From: a virus
DNA length: 29,413 nucleotides
Reading direction: 5' to 3' (one strand)
Virus record (IMG/VR): IMGVR_UViG_3300003885_000030
Coordinates: 1 to 29,413 of that record
This document shows, in pieces, positions 5,427 to 26,962 of this stretch (position 1 is its first letter; the number at the start of each line of letters is the position of its first letter). Made by a program: the position numbers and the translations under genes. The notes below the pieces were generated by a model, which did not search any database, had not been told where the DNA came from, and saw only the letters and a list, made by a program, of their open reading frames with translations.

Positions 5427-7493
5427 ATGGAAAAGTATTGGCAATTTCTAAACAAAAAAAATGACTCAGTTGAAATTCTCCTGTATGGCGAAATAGGGGA
5501 AAGTATGTGGTCTAACGGCATAGGCGCAAAGCAATTTGCCGAGGATTTGCAAGCCCTCGGAAAGGGCATTAAAAATATTGTTCTCAGGATTAATTCCCCT
5601 GGTGGGTCTGTTTTTGAAGGACTTGCCATATATAATCTCCTGAAAAATCATCAGGCTAATATTGAGGTTCATGTTGATGGCATTGCCGCTTCAATAGCGT
5701 CGGTTATTGCGATGGCAGGCGATAAAATTATTATGCCTGAAAATGCGATTATTATGATACATGACCCAATGGGATTAGTACAGGGGACATCAGATGATAT
5801 GCAAAAAATGGTAGAAGCTCTTGGTAAAATTAAGCTTGGTATTATTTCAGCATATCGAGATAAGACTGGATTAGAAGATAAGGAAATCAGCAAACTCATG
5901 AACCATGAAACATGGTTTACTGCTTCTGAAGCAGTGGAACAAGGCTTTGCTGATGAAGTCCAGGAAGCTATGAAAATAGCAGCTTCTTTTGATTTATCAA
6001 AATTTCAAAACATTCCTAAAAAAGTTCTTAATCAATACGATAGGATAATCAATGAAGACAATAATATTATTCTATTATCTGATGAACTCAAACAAGCCCT
6101 CGGAGACATTAAGTCTGCGATTATAAATAATCCAACAAAAAAGGAGGACACTAAAATGATGTGTTCAAAATGTAGCAAAGAACATGCAAATCTGGTTAAT
6201 GGTATTTGCCCGGATTGCATACAGGCGCAAACAAATATTGATGTAGCTATCAATGATACAAGACAAGCAGAACAAACAAGAGTAGCTGATATACTTGCCA
6301 TGGGTGATTCCCACAAATGTCTTGATGTAGCCAGACAGCATATCAAGGACGGGAAATCCGTAGAGGAATTCAAAACTGAAATACTCACAAAGGTATACAA
6401 TGCAAAACCGGCCACCCCCATTTCTCCGGAACTGGGCATGTCGGGAAGTGAAGTGGAACAATTTTCAATTGTCAAGGCGATCAGGCAGATTTCAGAATTC
6501 AAACCCCTCGATGGGATTGAAAAAGAGGCTTCCGATGCAACTGCAAAAATTGCAAGAAGAGAGCCTAAAGGATTTTTCATCCCTCATGATGTTATGAGGC
6601 AGCAGCTAAATCTTGCAAGGGCAATGCAGATTAAAAATGCCTTATCGGCTGGAGACTCAACCGCTGGAGGCTATCTGATTGGTACTGATGTGCTGGTATC
6701 GGATATGATTGAGTTGCTTAGAAATAAAACTCTCGTTGCGCAGCTTGGGGCAAGGGTATTGTCAGGACTTGTTGGTAATATCGCTATCCCGAGGATAACT
6801 GGTGGAGCAACCGCATATTGGCTGCCAGAAACTGGAACTGTAACGGCATCAACTCAGTCATTCGGGCAGCTTGGTTTAGTTCCCCGGAGACTTGTAGCAG
6901 ACACTGCATACTCAAAAGAGCTAATGATGCAGACATCGTTGGATATTGAATCGTTTGTAAGAGAAGACCTTATGAGAGTGCTCGGCCTTGCAAAAGATTT
7001 AGCGGCTATCAATGGCGCTGGGTCGGACGGCGAACCTCTTGGAATCATGAACGTAACAGGAATAGGTTCTGTAACGTTTGGAGCAGCCCCTACATGGGCA
7101 AAAGTCGTTGAGTTTGAGACTGACGTAGCCAATGCAAATGCAGACCTCGGGCCAATGGCATATCTCACAACCCCGAATGTTAGAGGTTCATGGAAAACTA
7201 CCCCAAAAGTAACTGCACAGCCTGTATATCTATGGCAAGATGGGGCAACGCCTGGATCAGGAGTTGTAAACGGTTATCGTGCAGAGGCAACAAAGCAGGT
7301 ACCATCTGATAAAGTTATTTTCGGAAACTGGAATGACCTGATACTTGCAGACTGGGCAGGTGTTGACGTTGTGGTTGACCCGTACTCCCTGAAGAAATCA
7401 GGCCAGATTGAAATTACAATCACAATACACAGTGACTCAGGCGTCAGACATGCAGCGTCATTCAGCGTGTCGAGCGATGCAGGAAATCAGTAG
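5427..7493 (+). CDS. ClpP-like prohead protease fused to HK97-fold major capsid protein
   Basis: One 688-residue frame joins two head proteins. Residues 1-185 are a ClpP/S49-type serine protease: INSPGGSVFEG at 55-65, nucleophile S89 in GIAAS, H112 in MIHDPMG, and TWFTASEAVEQGFADE at 162-177. Residues 244-268 hold a Cys4 cluster (C246, C249, C261, C264). Residues 270-400 are helical, like a scaffolding delta domain. From about 405 the HK97 capsid fold is recognisable (AGGYLIGTD, IPRITGG, NGAGSDGEPLGI, NWNDLILADWAGVDV). The protease would cleave scaffold from capsid during maturation. A strong Shine-Dalgarno (GGGAGG, 5413-5418) precedes the start. A second strong site lies inside the frame (see 6141-6158), so the capsid may also be made separately. 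Fused protease-capsid genes are known in other phages. Confidence 0.92.
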   Translation: MEKYWQFLNKKNDSVEILLYGEIGESMWSNGIGAKQFAEDLQALGKGIKNIVLRINSPGGSVFEGLAIYNLLKNHQANIEVHVDGIAASIASVIAMAGDKIIMPENAIIMIHDPMGLVQGTSDDMQKMVEALGKIKLGIISAYRDKTGLEDKEISKLMNHETWFTASEAVEQGFADEVQEAMKIAASFDLSKFQNIPKKVLNQYDRIINEDNNIILLSDELKQALGDIKSAIINNPTKKEDTKMMCSKCSKEHANLVNGICPDCIQAQTNIDVAINDTRQAEQTRVADILAMGDSHKCLDVARQHIKDGKSVEEFKTEILTKVYNAKPATPISPELGMSGSEVEQFSIVKAIRQISEFKPLDGIEKEASDATAKIARREPKGFFIPHDVMRQQLNLARAMQIKNALSAGDSTAGGYLIGTDVLVSDMIELLRNKTLVAQLGARVLSGLVGNIAIPRITGGATAYWLPETGTVTASTQSFGQLGLVPRRLVADTAYSKELMMQTSLDIESFVREDLMRVLGLAKDLAAINGAGSDGEPLGIMNVTGIGSVTFGAAPTWAKVVEFETDVANANADLGPMAYLTTPNVRGSWKTTPKVTAQPVYLWQDGATPGSGVVNGYRAEATKQVPSDKVIFGNWNDLILADWAGVDVVVDPYSLKKSGQIEITITIHSDSGVRHAASFSVSSDAGNQ
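6141..6158 (+). promoter_or_regulatory. Internal ribosome binding site and in-frame ATG within the protease-capsid gene
   Basis: AAGGAGG (6141-6147) lies 8 nt before an in-frame ATG at 6156, which is Met244 of the fusion. This is a near-perfect anti-Shine-Dalgarno match, better than those of most real starts nearby. Initiation here would give a 445-residue protein of Cys4 cluster, scaffold-like helices and capsid, without the protease. It resembles lambda Nu3 nested in gene C. Confidence 0.7.
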
Positions 7494-18213: not shown

Positions 18214-20298
18214 ATGGCTTTCACAACAAATTACAATTTACCGGATATGCCCACAGGCGCAGTAGATTGGCCAGCACTATTTAACGATTTTGTAAATAAG
18301 ATAGAAGCCGGCAGAACAATTAAAATAACCGCAGGTGAAGCACTTACCGCAGGACAGCCTTTTAAAATTTCCTCAGATACAAAAGCTTACAAAGCAATCA
18401 ATACTGATATATGCGCCGGTATTGTAAAATCCGATATTGCGCTTGATGCAGAAGGATTTGGTTATACTGGGAAGGGCAATATTATTACTACAGGGGCTGG
18501 CTGGACTGTAGGTGGATTAATCTATGTGGGCACTACAGCAGGCACTCTCACACAAACCGAGCCTATATCAACGACTATAGGAGTTGCTCCTATTGCTATT
18601 GCCAAAACTGCTACAAGCATCATGCTTCTTTCCGGTACAATTTCCAACACCACGGGTCTTCTTTTTTCGGCAGCTCTCCCCGCTCATTATGAAAGAGACC
18701 AAAAATGGCAAATTAAAGGATACACTGTAAAAGGCTCAATCACCGCCTTTGCTGACTCAACAACAGCCCCTGGAGTGGATACAACTGTGACCTCAGCATC
18801 TCATGGATTATCCAATGGAGAGGTAGTAGTGATAACAGGCACTACGAGTTATAACGGGACATGGACTATCGAAAATGTAACAACTGATACATTTGATATA
18901 ATTATTGCCTTTGTAGCTGATGATGCCACAGGGACATGGCAAAAAGAGCCTGCCAGGAGATATACCCTTTTATCACCCAACCGACTGACAGTTAATATTG
19001 ACGATTTGGGCTATGCATTACTAATTCAATCGGAAATTGACTTATCAGCGGCGGCAAGTTGGGATACTCAGAGTCCAATTGATTATACTACTGGAGCTAA
19101 TGTAGTTAGCACCCCTGCATTTACAGGTTCGGGGCTTGATGATATGAGTCTCGGGGCTGATACCAATTACGCAGGACCTGACATTAAAAATTACAGGGTT
19201 GAAATATATGCCACAGGCACGCCTGATACGTTCAAATGGTCAAATGATGGCGGTTCTACGTGGGAGGCTACCGGTGTTGCTATTACAGGCTCTGCTCAGC
19301 TTCTTGAAAATAGGATATATGTTACCTTTGCGGCTACTACAGGGCATACGGTAGGGGATTACTGGGATGAGACCGCTACCCCTGGGAGGGCAGGAAAATC
19401 GTTCTATATTTATGCGTGTCAGCCTTCATCCGGCTTAACTCCAGTTTTTGTAATTAGCGCTAATAGCACTGTTCCGAGCGGATATACTGCTGATAATTCA
19501 AGAAAAATAGGATGCTTCAATTGTGAATGTGCTGATGTAGGCACAATTTCAGGGCATTCACTTGATGGGTTTGTAGCAGGGGATATCTTACCTGCTTCAA
19601 TTGCAGACCTAAAACATAGACCAAAAGAGCGGTGGAATGAGGGAATGGTTTACGATGAGTCTACCCAACTATGGGTTGATATATACTTAGCCTCCGGGAC
19701 TGGGAGTTCTGCAGAATCTGTATATAATGGGACTATTACGGATTCCAGAAACTGGATGGATGTTGTAGATGATGGGGCTGCGGTTAAGAAAAGAATGCTC
19801 AGGGATAGGGAGTTTCAGATTGCCGCTACGGGCAGTAATGAGGAGACAAACATTAATGGCTCAGCCGACGCTGTAACAACCGGAGGTCATTCTGATACGG
19901 CTGGAAGGCGTATGGTCAGCAATATTGGCTGTGAAGACTGCTGCGGGGTGATGTGGCAGTGGCTGGATGAGCAGTCTTTTAGGGTTGAGAGTGATCATAG
20001 TCATACTGAGAACCAGGAAGCGTCGTATACCCAAAGTGTGCAAACCGAATCGAAGGATTTAGCTGCGTGGGGCTGGTACAATCTTCCAGGAAGTAAAGGA
20101 AGGTTATATCGTCAGGGCGCTTACGGTGATGTGAAGCTGCTGGCGGGTGCGAATTGGAGTAATAGTTCGAATTCCGGCTCGCGGGCTCGTTATGCGTATA
20201 GCTATCGCTGGTTTGCGGATACGGCTGTCAGCGGTCGGTTCGCGGCGGATACAGGACTTAGAGTTAAACTCCTGGCTGGGTCTATTAGCCTTGCCTAA
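18214..20298 (+). CDS. Receptor-binding tail fibre protein with DGR-type C-lectin variable domain
   Basis: The 694-residue protein directly follows the tip protein and has AGGAGG before its ATG. The N-terminus (TNYNLPDMPTGAVDWP) looks like a virion-attachment domain. Residues about 180-245 are a beta module (SASHGLSNGEVVVITGT). The C-terminal 170 residues match formylglycine-enzyme/C-type-lectin folds of retroelement variable proteins: RDREFQIAATGSNEETNING, CCGVMWQWLDEQ, AAWGWYNLPGSKGRLYRQG, YGDVKLLAGANW, and SGSRAR. The last part (about 646-681) shows variable-region codon use (see 20141-20260). The fold tolerates many surface residues and binds the host receptor. The reverse transcriptase normally found nearby seems truncated. 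Confidence 0.8.
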   Translation: MAFTTNYNLPDMPTGAVDWPALFNDFVNKIEAGRTIKITAGEALTAGQPFKISSDTKAYKAINTDICAGIVKSDIALDAEGFGYTGKGNIITTGAGWTVGGLIYVGTTAGTLTQTEPISTTIGVAPIAIAKTATSIMLLSGTISNTTGLLFSAALPAHYERDQKWQIKGYTVKGSITAFADSTTAPGVDTTVTSASHGLSNGEVVVITGTTSYNGTWTIENVTTDTFDIIIAFVADDATGTWQKEPARRYTLLSPNRLTVNIDDLGYALLIQSEIDLSAAASWDTQSPIDYTTGANVVSTPAFTGSGLDDMSLGADTNYAGPDIKNYRVEIYATGTPDTFKWSNDGGSTWEATGVAITGSAQLLENRIYVTFAATTGHTVGDYWDETATPGRAGKSFYIYACQPSSGLTPVFVISANSTVPSGYTADNSRKIGCFNCECADVGTISGHSLDGFVAGDILPASIADLKHRPKERWNEGMVYDESTQLWVDIYLASGTGSSAESVYNGTITDSRNWMDVVDDGAAVKKRMLRDREFQIAATGSNEETNINGSADAVTTGGHSDTAGRRMVSNIGCEDCCGVMWQWLDEQSFRVESDHSHTENQEASYTQSVQTESKDLAAWGWYNLPGSKGRLYRQGAYGDVKLLAGANWSNSSNSGSRARYAYSYRWFADTAVSGRFAADTGLRVKLLAGSISLA
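20141..20260 (+). other. Putative DGR variable region (VR)
   Basis: Codons for residues 646-678 are unlike the rest of the AT-rich gene and rich in G and C. Around the invariant GSR (655-657), W666 and R675 there are 14 codons of form NNY: 658-660, 662-665, 667, 669, 671-674 and 676, encoding A, R, Y, Y, S, Y, R, F, D, A, V, S, G, F. This is what adenine mutagenesis of AAY codons in a template repeat would produce. No template repeat is found in the window, so the assignment rests on pattern only. Confidence 0.65.
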
Positions 20299-20360
20299 AA
20301 GGCAAAACGGAGGGATTGGGTGATTAGTAGCTATGGCGAACGTCATCCAATTTAAAGAAA

Positions 20361-20543
20361 ATGAAAAGACATGGAAATTTATTTGACAGGATTGTTGAGA
20401 TGGATAATTTAAGACTGGCATATAAAAATGCTAAGAGAGGAAAATCTTGGCAAAGATTCGAAAGAGCTTATTGGACAAATCATTTCATACATCGATTAAG
20501 AAAATTGATAGATATTATACTTTTTATTAGAGAGGAGGCATGA
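20361..20543 (+). pseudogene. N-terminal remnant of a DGR reverse transcriptase
   Basis: The 60-codon frame begins MKRHGNLFDRIVEMDNLRLA and continues YKNAKRGKSWQ. This is the usual opening of retroelement reverse transcriptases; Bordetella Brt starts with a similar KRHRNL-x-ENLL-x-AYRK pattern. After about residue 35 the similarity fades, and a TGA ends the frame. The finger, palm (YxDD) and thumb regions are absent here and everywhere else in the window. It lies 62 nt after the variable-protein gene, where such enzymes are often encoded. The likely history is a deletion that removed the RT core and template repeat. A small unrelated protein with chance similarity is possible. Confidence 0.6.
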
Positions 20544-20544
20544 A

Positions 20545-20883
20545 ATGAGAGGATTTCCTAAATACATAAACACTAAGGAAGATGTAGCTATTTTGCAGAA
20601 TGGGACGGTTGAATTAGGCAATAAAAAGAACTACCCCTCTGAAATGGCTGAATATACTCGCAAGATGCAAGAAGAAAGGTTCTGTTGGCAGGTAGTAAAA
20701 GAGCTTGCCAAAGATAAAATCGGGATTGAAGATAAAACACATCAGATAACCACAGAAGAGATGGAAGATGGACAGGCTAAACGGTTGCAGGTGCAGTTAG
20801 TTGAGGACAAAAACGCAAAGTTCTTTAGACTATCATTGATAGATACAGCTAAGGATGCTAAAGATGCCACTGACGGAAGCTGA
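20545..20883 (+). CDS. Conserved phage protein of unknown function (MRGFPKYINTKED family)
   Basis: The 112-residue acidic protein opens MRGFPKYINTKEDVAIL. I recognise this opening from small proteins encoded directly after tail-fibre or retroelement variable-protein genes in other phages. The central VVKELAKDKIGIEDKTH and the late KLQVQL-type strand, KFFRLSLID, suggest one alpha/beta domain. A chaperone role for the fibre is possible from position only. GAGGAGG (20532-20538) gives a strong ribosome binding site. Its last 20 nt overlap the next gene. Confidence 0.6.
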   Translation: MRGFPKYINTKEDVAILQNGTVELGNKKNYPSEMAEYTRKMQEERFCWQVVKELAKDKIGIEDKTHQITTEEMEDGQAKRLQVQLVEDKNAKFFRLSLIDTAKDAKDATDGS

Positions 20884-22946: not shown

Positions 22947-23017
22947 GTATGTATGAATCAGACGTTGTGCAGACAGAATTAAAACGTTTGATTGATGAAA
23001 TATCTTCAGGAGTTTAC

Positions 23018-23455
23018 ATGGACCATACAATGACTGTAATGACATCAACCAGAGATATGACATGGGCAACACCTCAGAAATGGTTTGACTATCTTAACCT
23101 TGAGTTTAAGTTTACGCTTGATCCTTGCTGTGTAGCACAGACAGCAAAGTGCAAAAAATATTTTACCCCTGAGTCTGACGGACTTAAGCAAAGTTGGGCT
23201 GCAGAACGTGTGTTTATGAACCCGCCATACGGTAAGGAGATACCTAAATGGATGAAAAAAGCATATGAATCGGCAAGGGATGAGGGGGCTCTTGTTGTCT
23301 GTTTAGTTCCTGCCAGGGTAGATACTGAATGGTGGCATAGATATGCTGCTAAAGCAACAGACATTAGATTCCCGATAGGACGATTAAAATTTGCAGGTGC
23401 GGAACATGCAGCCCCTTTTCCGGTGGCAATAGTGATATTCCGGCCTAAAATATAA
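23018..23455 (+). CDS. Phage Dam-type DNA N6-adenine methyltransferase
   Basis: The ATG at 23018 has CAGGAG (23007-23012) upstream; the longer frame from 22949 begins before the predicted transcription start. The 145-residue product has TWATPQKWFDYL, FTLDPCC, KYFTPESDGLKQSW, catalytic NPPY at 68-71 (MNPPYGK), LVPARVDTEWWH and IGRLKFAG. This is the small phage Dam family (PF05869). It methylates adenine in DNA and may protect phage DNA from restriction or mark it for packaging or mismatch repair. The usual DPPY first residue is Asn here, which is normal in this family. Its TAA lies inside the attC-like palindrome at 23451, so gene and site form a cassette-like unit. Its own strong promoter sets it apart from the late operon. 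Confidence 0.88.
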   Translation: MDHTMTVMTSTRDMTWATPQKWFDYLNLEFKFTLDPCCVAQTAKCKKYFTPESDGLKQSWAAERVFMNPPYGKEIPKWMKKAYESARDEGALVVCLVPARVDTEWWHRYAAKATDIRFPIGRLKFAGAEHAAPFPVAIVIFRPKI

Positions 23456-25869: not shown

Positions 25870-26000
25870 TGCAGAAAAATAATACACGAAAATGGTTTTA
25901 TATCGGGAAATGGTATCTATTTATTACGCTGAGGAAGCCTAAAGTTTATTTATCGAGGATGCCGGTTAGATATAAGAAAATTAAGTTAAAGGGGGAATAA
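25869..26000 (+). CDS. 43-residue basic protein
   Basis: The ATG at 25869 overlaps the preceding TAA and has AGGGAGGA upstream; the longer in-frame start at 25815 is unlikely because it lies deep in the previous gene. The product MQKNNTRKWFYIGKWYLFIT continues LRKPKVYLSRMPVRYKKIKL. It is very basic and aromatic with strand-like alternation, which could suggest nucleic-acid binding. Its TAA overlaps the recT start. Confidence 0.5.
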   Translation: MQKNNTRKWFYIGKWYLFITLRKPKVYLSRMPVRYKKIKLKGE

Positions 26001-26962
26001 TGTCAGAAATAGTTAAATATCAAACATCAGGGGGCGAGATAACATTATCGCCTGCAATCATCAAGAAGTATCTTGTGTCAGGACAAGGGAGGGTAACGGA
26101 TCAGGAGTGCATGATGTTTCTTGCACTCTGCAAATATCAGAAACTTAATCCGTTTTTGAGAGAAGTCTATCTCATTAAATATGGTAATGAAGCAGCTACG
26201 ATGGTAACAGGCAAAGAGACATTTCTAAAAAGAGCGGCCAAAAACGAGAAATATGCCGGGCATAAAACAGGAATAAGTGCGGATAGTAAAATAGCATGGG
26301 CAGAAGTTTATTGTCATGGGTATCAGGTACCTATCCGGTGTGAGGTTGATTATGCAGAATATGTCGGGAGAAAAAAAGATGGCACGCCAAATCGCATGTG
26401 GAAAGAAAAACCCCGGACGATGCTGAAAAAAGTGGCTTTGCTTCAAAGTTTGCGAGAAGCTTTCCCTCAAGATTTTGGGGGCATGTATTCCCAGGAAGAA
26501 ATCAATACCATAACAGAGCCATTACCAGTTGGTACTGTAGACATTGAATCAACAGAACCAATTGAAACAGGTGAAGGGGTGGAGACCACACAAAAGCCAT
26601 TATCAGAAGAACAGACAAAACTATGGACTTGCCTTGTTAAATTCTGTGATGGAAGTAAGCCTGAAATCGCTCAGGAACTAAAAGCCCGCACTGCCTTTAC
26701 CGTGACTAAGGGTAAGGACAAAGGGAAGCAGATAGACGGCAAGGACTCATTGTATGACGTTTCTGATAGCCAAGCACAAACAGTTAGGCATCAGATTGAG
26801 AATGAACTTAAAAAAAAGGAGCCTGAATCATCAAAAGAAGAGCCGGAGACTAACAAATGTCTCTCATGCGATAGATTCAGTGGCTGTCAGATGTTACAAA
26901 ATCCTTCCCAAGTTAAAATATGTAAGGGGCCGTTTGCAGAAACGCAACAAGAGGCGTTTTAA
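26000..26962 (+). CDS. recT: RecT/Bet-family single-strand annealing protein
   Basis: The 320-residue protein has the RecT/Red-beta family core at about 30-165: VTDQECMMFLALCKYQKLNP, FLREVYLIKYG, MVTGKETFLKRAAKNEKYAG, CEVDYAEYVGRKKDG, KPRTMLKKVALLQSLREAFP. Such proteins coat single strands produced by a partner exonuclease and anneal them in phage recombination. The C-terminal part is acidic and repetitive to about 285, then has a Cys cluster (KCLSCDRFSGCQ, KICKGP), a possible zinc site not found in classical Bet. GGGGGA lies just before the ATG. The adjacent exonuclease gene completes the usual two-gene recombination cassette. Confidence 0.88.
   Translation: MSEIVKYQTSGGEITLSPAIIKKYLVSGQGRVTDQECMMFLALCKYQKLNPFLREVYLIKYGNEAATMVTGKETFLKRAAKNEKYAGHKTGISADSKIAWAEVYCHGYQVPIRCEVDYAEYVGRKKDGTPNRMWKEKPRTMLKKVALLQSLREAFPQDFGGMYSQEEINTITEPLPVGTVDIESTEPIETGEGVETTQKPLSEEQTKLWTCLVKFCDGSKPEIAQELKARTAFTVTKGKDKGKQIDGKDSLYDVSDSQAQTVRHQIENELKKKEPESSKEEPETNKCLSCDRFSGCQMLQNPSQVKICKGPFAETQQEAF

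Follow-up and report, generated by a model that had tools for sequence, protein, structure and literature searches.

A decayed DGR beside an intact, once-diversified phage receptor-binding gene, with repeated cassette loss among its relatives

Introduction

Can a phage receptor-binding protein that bears the marks of a diversity-generating retroelement (DGR) still be diversified when only the opening of a reverse transcriptase (RT) lies beyond its gene? The question is raised by the IMG/VR virus record IMGVR_UViG_3300003885_000030, all 29,413 bases of which were analysed here (the window); the record is linear, and so possibly a fragment. A sequence-only reading had described a fibre protein with the C-lectin scaffold and the variable region (VR) of a DGR target, a truncated RT downstream and no template repeat (TR), and had left two options, a receptor binder left frozen when its enzyme was lost or one served in trans by another element. 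We compared the locus with relatives of its receptor-binding protein and with known DGRs.

Results

By terminase, no near viral relatives of the phage were found among viral contigs; the phage relatives of its terminase are 37-45% identical. Rfam gave no match, nor did exact-pattern DNA searches for the TR flank and the RT stub. The features of the region are collected in Table 1. Elsewhere in the window, a Dam-type DNA adenine methyltransferase is found at 22949-23455 (PF05869, E 8e-27).

Table 1. Features of the decayed cassette and its surroundings (positions in the window)
Feature	Position	Strand	Evidence
Mtd-like receptor-binding protein gene, 694 aa, target of the lost DGR	18214..20298	+	Pfam, PHROG, sequence match, AF2 model
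VR, repeat with A-directed mutation footprint	20142..20246	+	alignment with 34 TRs; codons against L137 TR and VR
Former TR 3' flank, now C-terminal tail of receptor protein (DTGLRVKLLAGSISLA)	20247..20298	+	matches relatives' TR flank, not VR flank
Rest of the old cassette's TR-to-RT spacer	20299..20360	+	aligned with L050, L057, L030 and L137 spacers
RT stub, codons 1-31 of DGR RT	20361..20453	+	PHROG_1423; at most 77% identity to full-length DGR RTs
TTGGCAAA, 8 bp common to both RT frames, inferred joint of ~46-nt frameshifting deletion	20447..20454	+	frames; tblastn placement
RT residues ~45-60 (LAKIRKSLLDKSFHTS), other frame	20447..20494	+	65% identity to L023 RT over 20 residues
C-terminal 11 codons plus stop codon (IKKIDRYYTFY) from the small gene after RT in intact cassettes	20495..20530	+	L050 and L030 ends
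Downstream gene (MRGFPKYINTKED..., 112 aa), conserved next gene past the cassette in many relatives	20545..20883	+	tblastn E 2.9e-9 to L050 gene
RecT/Bet-like single-strand annealing protein	26000..26962	+	PHROG_10056 E 1.8e-47

The receptor ORF matched Pfam PF21916 mtd_2nd (E 3.9e-13), PHROG_11262 'tail protein' (E 3.6e-52) and, by sequence, solved Mtd (1yu1; E 2.9e-8). For an AlphaFold2 model of residues 381-694 (pLDDT 80.7), the top Foldseek match was to Bordetella phage Mtd variants (E 4.8e-18), and alignment of the model with Mtd by VIA-align gave Z 26 and an rmsd of 2.7-3.3 over 251-259 residues; the next-best structural matches were formylglycine-generating enzymes and other DGR variable proteins, which have the C-type-lectin fold in common. 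As modelled, the protein is an Mtd-type DGR variable protein with a C-type-lectin end, which agrees with the scaffold originally proposed for it, and the GSR motif and W666 lie where they had been placed.

Since the window's own TR is lost, the mutational footprint was scored against the TRs of 34 relatives: of the columns conserved among these TRs, the window VR departs from 10 of the 22 that are A and from 2 of the 44 that are not (Fisher p = 1.3e-4). When TRs were compared with one another in leave-one-out controls, A columns were the most conserved, with 36/748 changed versus 150/1448 for non-A columns. Against the single TR of L137, changes were found at 15/28 A and 12/69 non-A positions (p = 5e-4), a few of the latter being due to divergence between the two phages, which dilutes the footprint; AAY codons of that TR appear in the window as AAT, AGT, TAT, AGC, TTT, GAT and GCT. 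The changes are thus A-directed rather than evenly spread, and on this alignment evidence the 3' end of the receptor gene is a real DGR VR, as had been suspected from its codons.

Complete cassettes in relatives consist of VR, TR, RT and a gene of ~100 aa, followed in many by a gene beginning MRGFPK or MVGYPR; in close relatives, VR and TR are similar direct repeats with 143-180 bp between them. One such cassette is carried by Caudoviricetes sp. vir525 (BK063673), a virus of Methanosarcinales, which shares the receptor family (58% identity over residues 385-644) and the VR-TR-RT-small gene layout but differs from the window in being complete, with an RT of 339 aa and a TR 180 bp after VR that shows 12 A-type mismatches and no others in the scored stretch. 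The gene of ~100 aa, present after RT in most cassettes (L050:10560-10868 and relatives), had only sub-threshold matches in Pfam and none in PHROG, and may encode an uncharacterised DGR accessory protein. At loci L004-L014 (e.g., L004:9683), the RT ORF is 426-429 aa long and apparently fused to the downstream gene (KLFRLGF... ending), without an intervening small gene. A VR/TR-like pair near 14970-15100 of L081 falls in a repetitive stretch and was judged to be noise.

No TR was found on either strand of the window, the best non-self 60-mer, with 8 non-A mismatches, being at background level, and no RVT_1 domain was found in the 29.4-kb record, which bears out the reported absence of a template repeat and of a YxDD protein. 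The sequence after TR in intact relatives reads ...GATACAGG...AACTCCTGGCTGG...TTGGCC..., and the one after VR is different; the VR end carries GAGCC in 36 of 50 loci, the TR end a GATACAG-like sequence in 42 of 50. The 3' boundary of the window VR is the TR-type GGATACAGG, not the recipient type (IMH); the sequence is VR-type to about 20229 and TR-type flank from 20247, continuing through the TR-RT spacer to the RT start, which places the crossover into TR-type flank between about 20230 and 20247. A single crossover between VR and TR that deleted TR would explain this fused boundary in one step. The receptor ORF remains open through the flank, from which its last ~16 residues derive, and this tail is mostly outside the Mtd-like fold (alignment of the model ends at residues 303-304 of 314; low pLDDT). 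A DNA hairpin after the window's VR received no z-score support, in a test that scored the flanks of relatives little better.

The 60-codon ORF beyond this boundary, which starts at 20361, 62 bases past the receptor ORF end at 20298 as originally given, matches the DGR RT profile PHROG_1423 at codons 1-47 (E 1.8e-6), and its relatives are encoded at 79 viral loci, mostly as full-length RTs with a YxDD motif. By tblastn, RT residues 45-64 were placed at 20447-20506; the sequence that follows resembles the small-gene C-termini of relatives, which end in KKIDRYYTLS (L050) and KKIDKFYTFS (L030). We infer that a deletion of ~46 nt between 8-bp repeats (TTGGCAAA) shifted the RT frame; a second, larger deletion, as judged from the same alignments, is what brought RT residue ~60 up against the C-terminal 11 residues of the small gene. 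Because no close relative with an intact ancestral cassette was found, the deletion lengths are estimated from more distant relatives. The second half of the ORF was ruled out as the RT's own C-terminus, as BLAST against 53 RT ORFs gave no match. The earlier description of a frame that opens like a DGR RT and stops before the catalytic domain is therefore right as to the RT N-terminus and the missing core, but the ORF is no simple early stop: it is a frameshifted deletion scar, the second half of which is out-of-frame sequence covering RT residues ~45-60 and the C-terminus of the next gene.

The scan for relatives was led by the receptor-protein scaffold, not by RT, and took the 80 loci nearest to the window's protein of 291 candidates. 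In 57 loci the sequence continues for at least 2 kb past the receptor gene; an RT core lies within 4.5 kb in 35 of these and not in the other 22, a fraction that applies to the neighbourhood of this protein and to a set in which a few loci are near-copies; RVT_1 was absent from the whole of 24 RT-less records of up to 123 kb. The remains of the cassette take many forms. RT residues 1-39 are fused to the next gene with TR kept in L030 and L175, residues 1-9 are left in L179, and residues 1-56 are left with TR kept in L022. Half a TR precedes the downstream gene in L116, and a TR stub precedes the middle of the small gene in L107 (a Sporomusaceae MAG). VR is followed by a complete small gene in L130 and L132, and directly by the downstream gene in L119, L163 and others. 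Against close intact sisters, L127 shows a deletion of ~1.45 kb (sister L015) and L154 lacks ~1.7 kb (sister L129). These RT-less relatives from IMG/VR and GTDB resemble the window in receptor family, kept VR and lost RT, but they differ in their joints and several keep TR; among them there was no second receptor gene ending in a TR flank.

In a 58-scaffold tree, at least 10 changes of RT state fall on well-supported branches and parsimony gives 18; the state is not clustered, and since stubs are present, at least many of these changes are losses. The same kind of cassette loss has thus been repeated in this receptor-protein family. Three candidate cases were rejected as RT losses: L036/L037 carry a short insertion with a frameshift, L077 a single in-frame stop, and L059 a likely recoded TAG. 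In the L059 phage (IMGVR_UViG_2936390555_000003; 10001-11640), the RT gene, the small gene and the downstream gene, which are consecutive, each contain a single in-frame TAG, and if TAG is read as sense the longest frame of the locus grows to 1305 codons instead of 459; from its sequence, this phage probably recodes TAG. Other loci show further rearrangements. HNH-type homing endonuclease-like genes (assigned by eye) replace the cassette in L114 (6983-7615) and L169 (about 2200-2700), directly after VR or a TR stub, and in L172 the place of TR, past the stop codon of the receptor gene at 6780, is taken by another VR-like copy, which has a VR-type end and may be VR copied over TR.

Pairs of related loci indicate how VR behaves with and without the enzyme. 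Near-identical DGR-bearing pairs differ mainly in VR: L142/L147 at 0/1450 positions upstream and 4/130 in VR, L139/L170 at 1/1450 and 4/130, and L152/L170 at 41/1450 upstream, 18/130 in VR and 0/1520 downstream (for L139 and L147, the contig stops short of RT but includes TR). In the RT-less pair L118/L122, VR differs at only 3/130 positions, all synonymous, while the flanks differ by ~10% (145/1449 upstream, 155/1520 downstream), and this conservation marks its VR as frozen. L130/L132, also RT-less, are identical throughout, and the sole difference between L149 and L151 is one A/G in VR.

Discussion

We consider it very probable that the region is the wreck of a VR-TR-RT-accessory DGR in which diversification has stopped, leaving the phage with one fixed receptor variant. 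The decayed DGR beside an intact, once-diversified receptor gene is directly apparent from the alignments, and the A-directed VR footprint, the RT stub with two deletion joints and the removal of TR all favor the proposal of a receptor binder frozen by enzyme loss. The freezing itself is seen in relatives; for the population of this phage, we infer that the protein is made and fixed.

The following history would account for the locus. In an ancestor, the C-type-lectin end of an Mtd-like protein would have been diversified by writing adenine-mutated cDNA of TR into VR. Recombination between the direct repeats, as the alignment shows, later deleted TR and joined VR to the downstream flank of TR; the phage's own RecT/Bet-like protein, together with the exonuclease encoded by the neighboring gene, is a plausible catalyst. 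Deletions, recognizable in the RT stub and the frameshift, removed most of the small gene along with the RT core, and this scheme sets no order between the TR-removing and RT-removing events. Because TR and RT are gone and the former VR ends in a TR-type 3' boundary, diversification has stopped, and the intact ORF suggests that the phage now makes a single receptor variant with a ~16-residue tail.

The best-studied comparison is the DGR of Bordetella phage BPP-1 (mtd, TR, avd, brt), with which the window shares the Mtd fold (Z 26), a VR at the 3' end and adenine-directed variation. Unlike BPP-1, the window lacks TR and the RT core and its receptor gene ends in TR-type flank, and the cassette of its relatives, as read here, has no avd but a small gene after RT. 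In BPP-1, which way sequence is transferred depends on a 21-bp element at the end of VR, the recipient requires a VR-type boundary (IMH) and a hairpin after VR, and a phage deleted for the cassette can be served from a plasmid (PMC3240598). The last point is one argument that the VR of the window could still be diversified in trans, with TR and RT supplied from genome sequence missing from the record, from a co-resident prophage or from the host. The record may be incomplete, as a linear sequence, so that an RT could lie elsewhere, and where RT-less relatives have kept TR, non-A mismatches are not clearly in excess (3/568 vs 16/5237), which means that their losses are recent or, less likely, that they are served in trans. 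Here, however, TR is gone, and by the BPP-1 rules a VR with a TR-type end would not be expected to serve as recipient, so by analogy this end should also block service in trans; moreover, no RT was found in the RT-less sister records, and VR is conserved in the RT-less pair L118/L122. We therefore regard service in trans, the second option of the sequence-only reading, as improbable, and favor the first, freezing by loss of the enzyme. The outcome that had been set as refuting that reading, no RT match together with evenly spread substitutions, was not obtained.

The VR-TR fusion might alternatively be an assembly collapse, the real genome keeping TR with or without RT. Similar direct repeats are a known assembly hazard, and VR and TR of close relatives are exactly such repeats at short distance. 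Yet a collapse would neither remove the RT core nor create the frameshifting deletion at TTGGCAAA, and relatives show real losses, TR loss included, at many different joints, so this explanation is equally improbable. That the 60-codon ORF is a functional small protein with a kept or borrowed RT N-terminus is scarcely credible: it runs uninterrupted from its ATG to a stop, with a well-conserved start, but the second half is out of frame, recognizable RT and small-gene sequence being found in the other frame, and in RT-less relatives the stub is 9, 39 or 56 residues long or missing.

The decayed DGR of the window has precedents. The DiGReF survey of 2012 described DGR RTs inactivated by nonsense mutation, frameshift or insertion, with VR and TR intact, and inferred recent loss (PMC3521204). 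Its cases, in Ruminococcus gnavus, Acaryochloris marina and Bacteroides, resemble the window in that RT is disrupted while the diversified target remains, but they have an intact VR/TR pair and point mutations or insertions, whereas in the window TR was lost by VR-TR recombination and the RT core was deleted. Inactivated DGR RTs were therefore already known; what appears to be new is the fusion of VR with TR and how often loss occurs, and we found no survey or frequency of RT-less VRs in the open-access literature, most subscription journals being outside the search.

One could envision cassette loss as a recurrent "diversify, then lock" step rather than mere decay, in which phages of this family repeatedly shed TR and RT by recombination, the last receptor variant comes under purifying selection, and lineages alternate between diversifying and fixed states. 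We put this forward tentatively, as a possibility that is rather less likely to be right than wrong. DGRs are usually detected through their RT, so targets without RT are missed; if the proposal is true, RT-first surveys would miss the fixed lineages. Whatever the cause of loss, the sampled receptor relatives, about two fifths of which (22/57) have no nearby RT, with many independent deletion joints, form a natural before-and-after set, in which one receptor scaffold occurs with its diversifier present, just lost or long lost. The set offers a way to test if diversification costs enough to be discarded, for what time a fixed specificity persists, and if recombination between VR and TR commonly serves as an off-switch.
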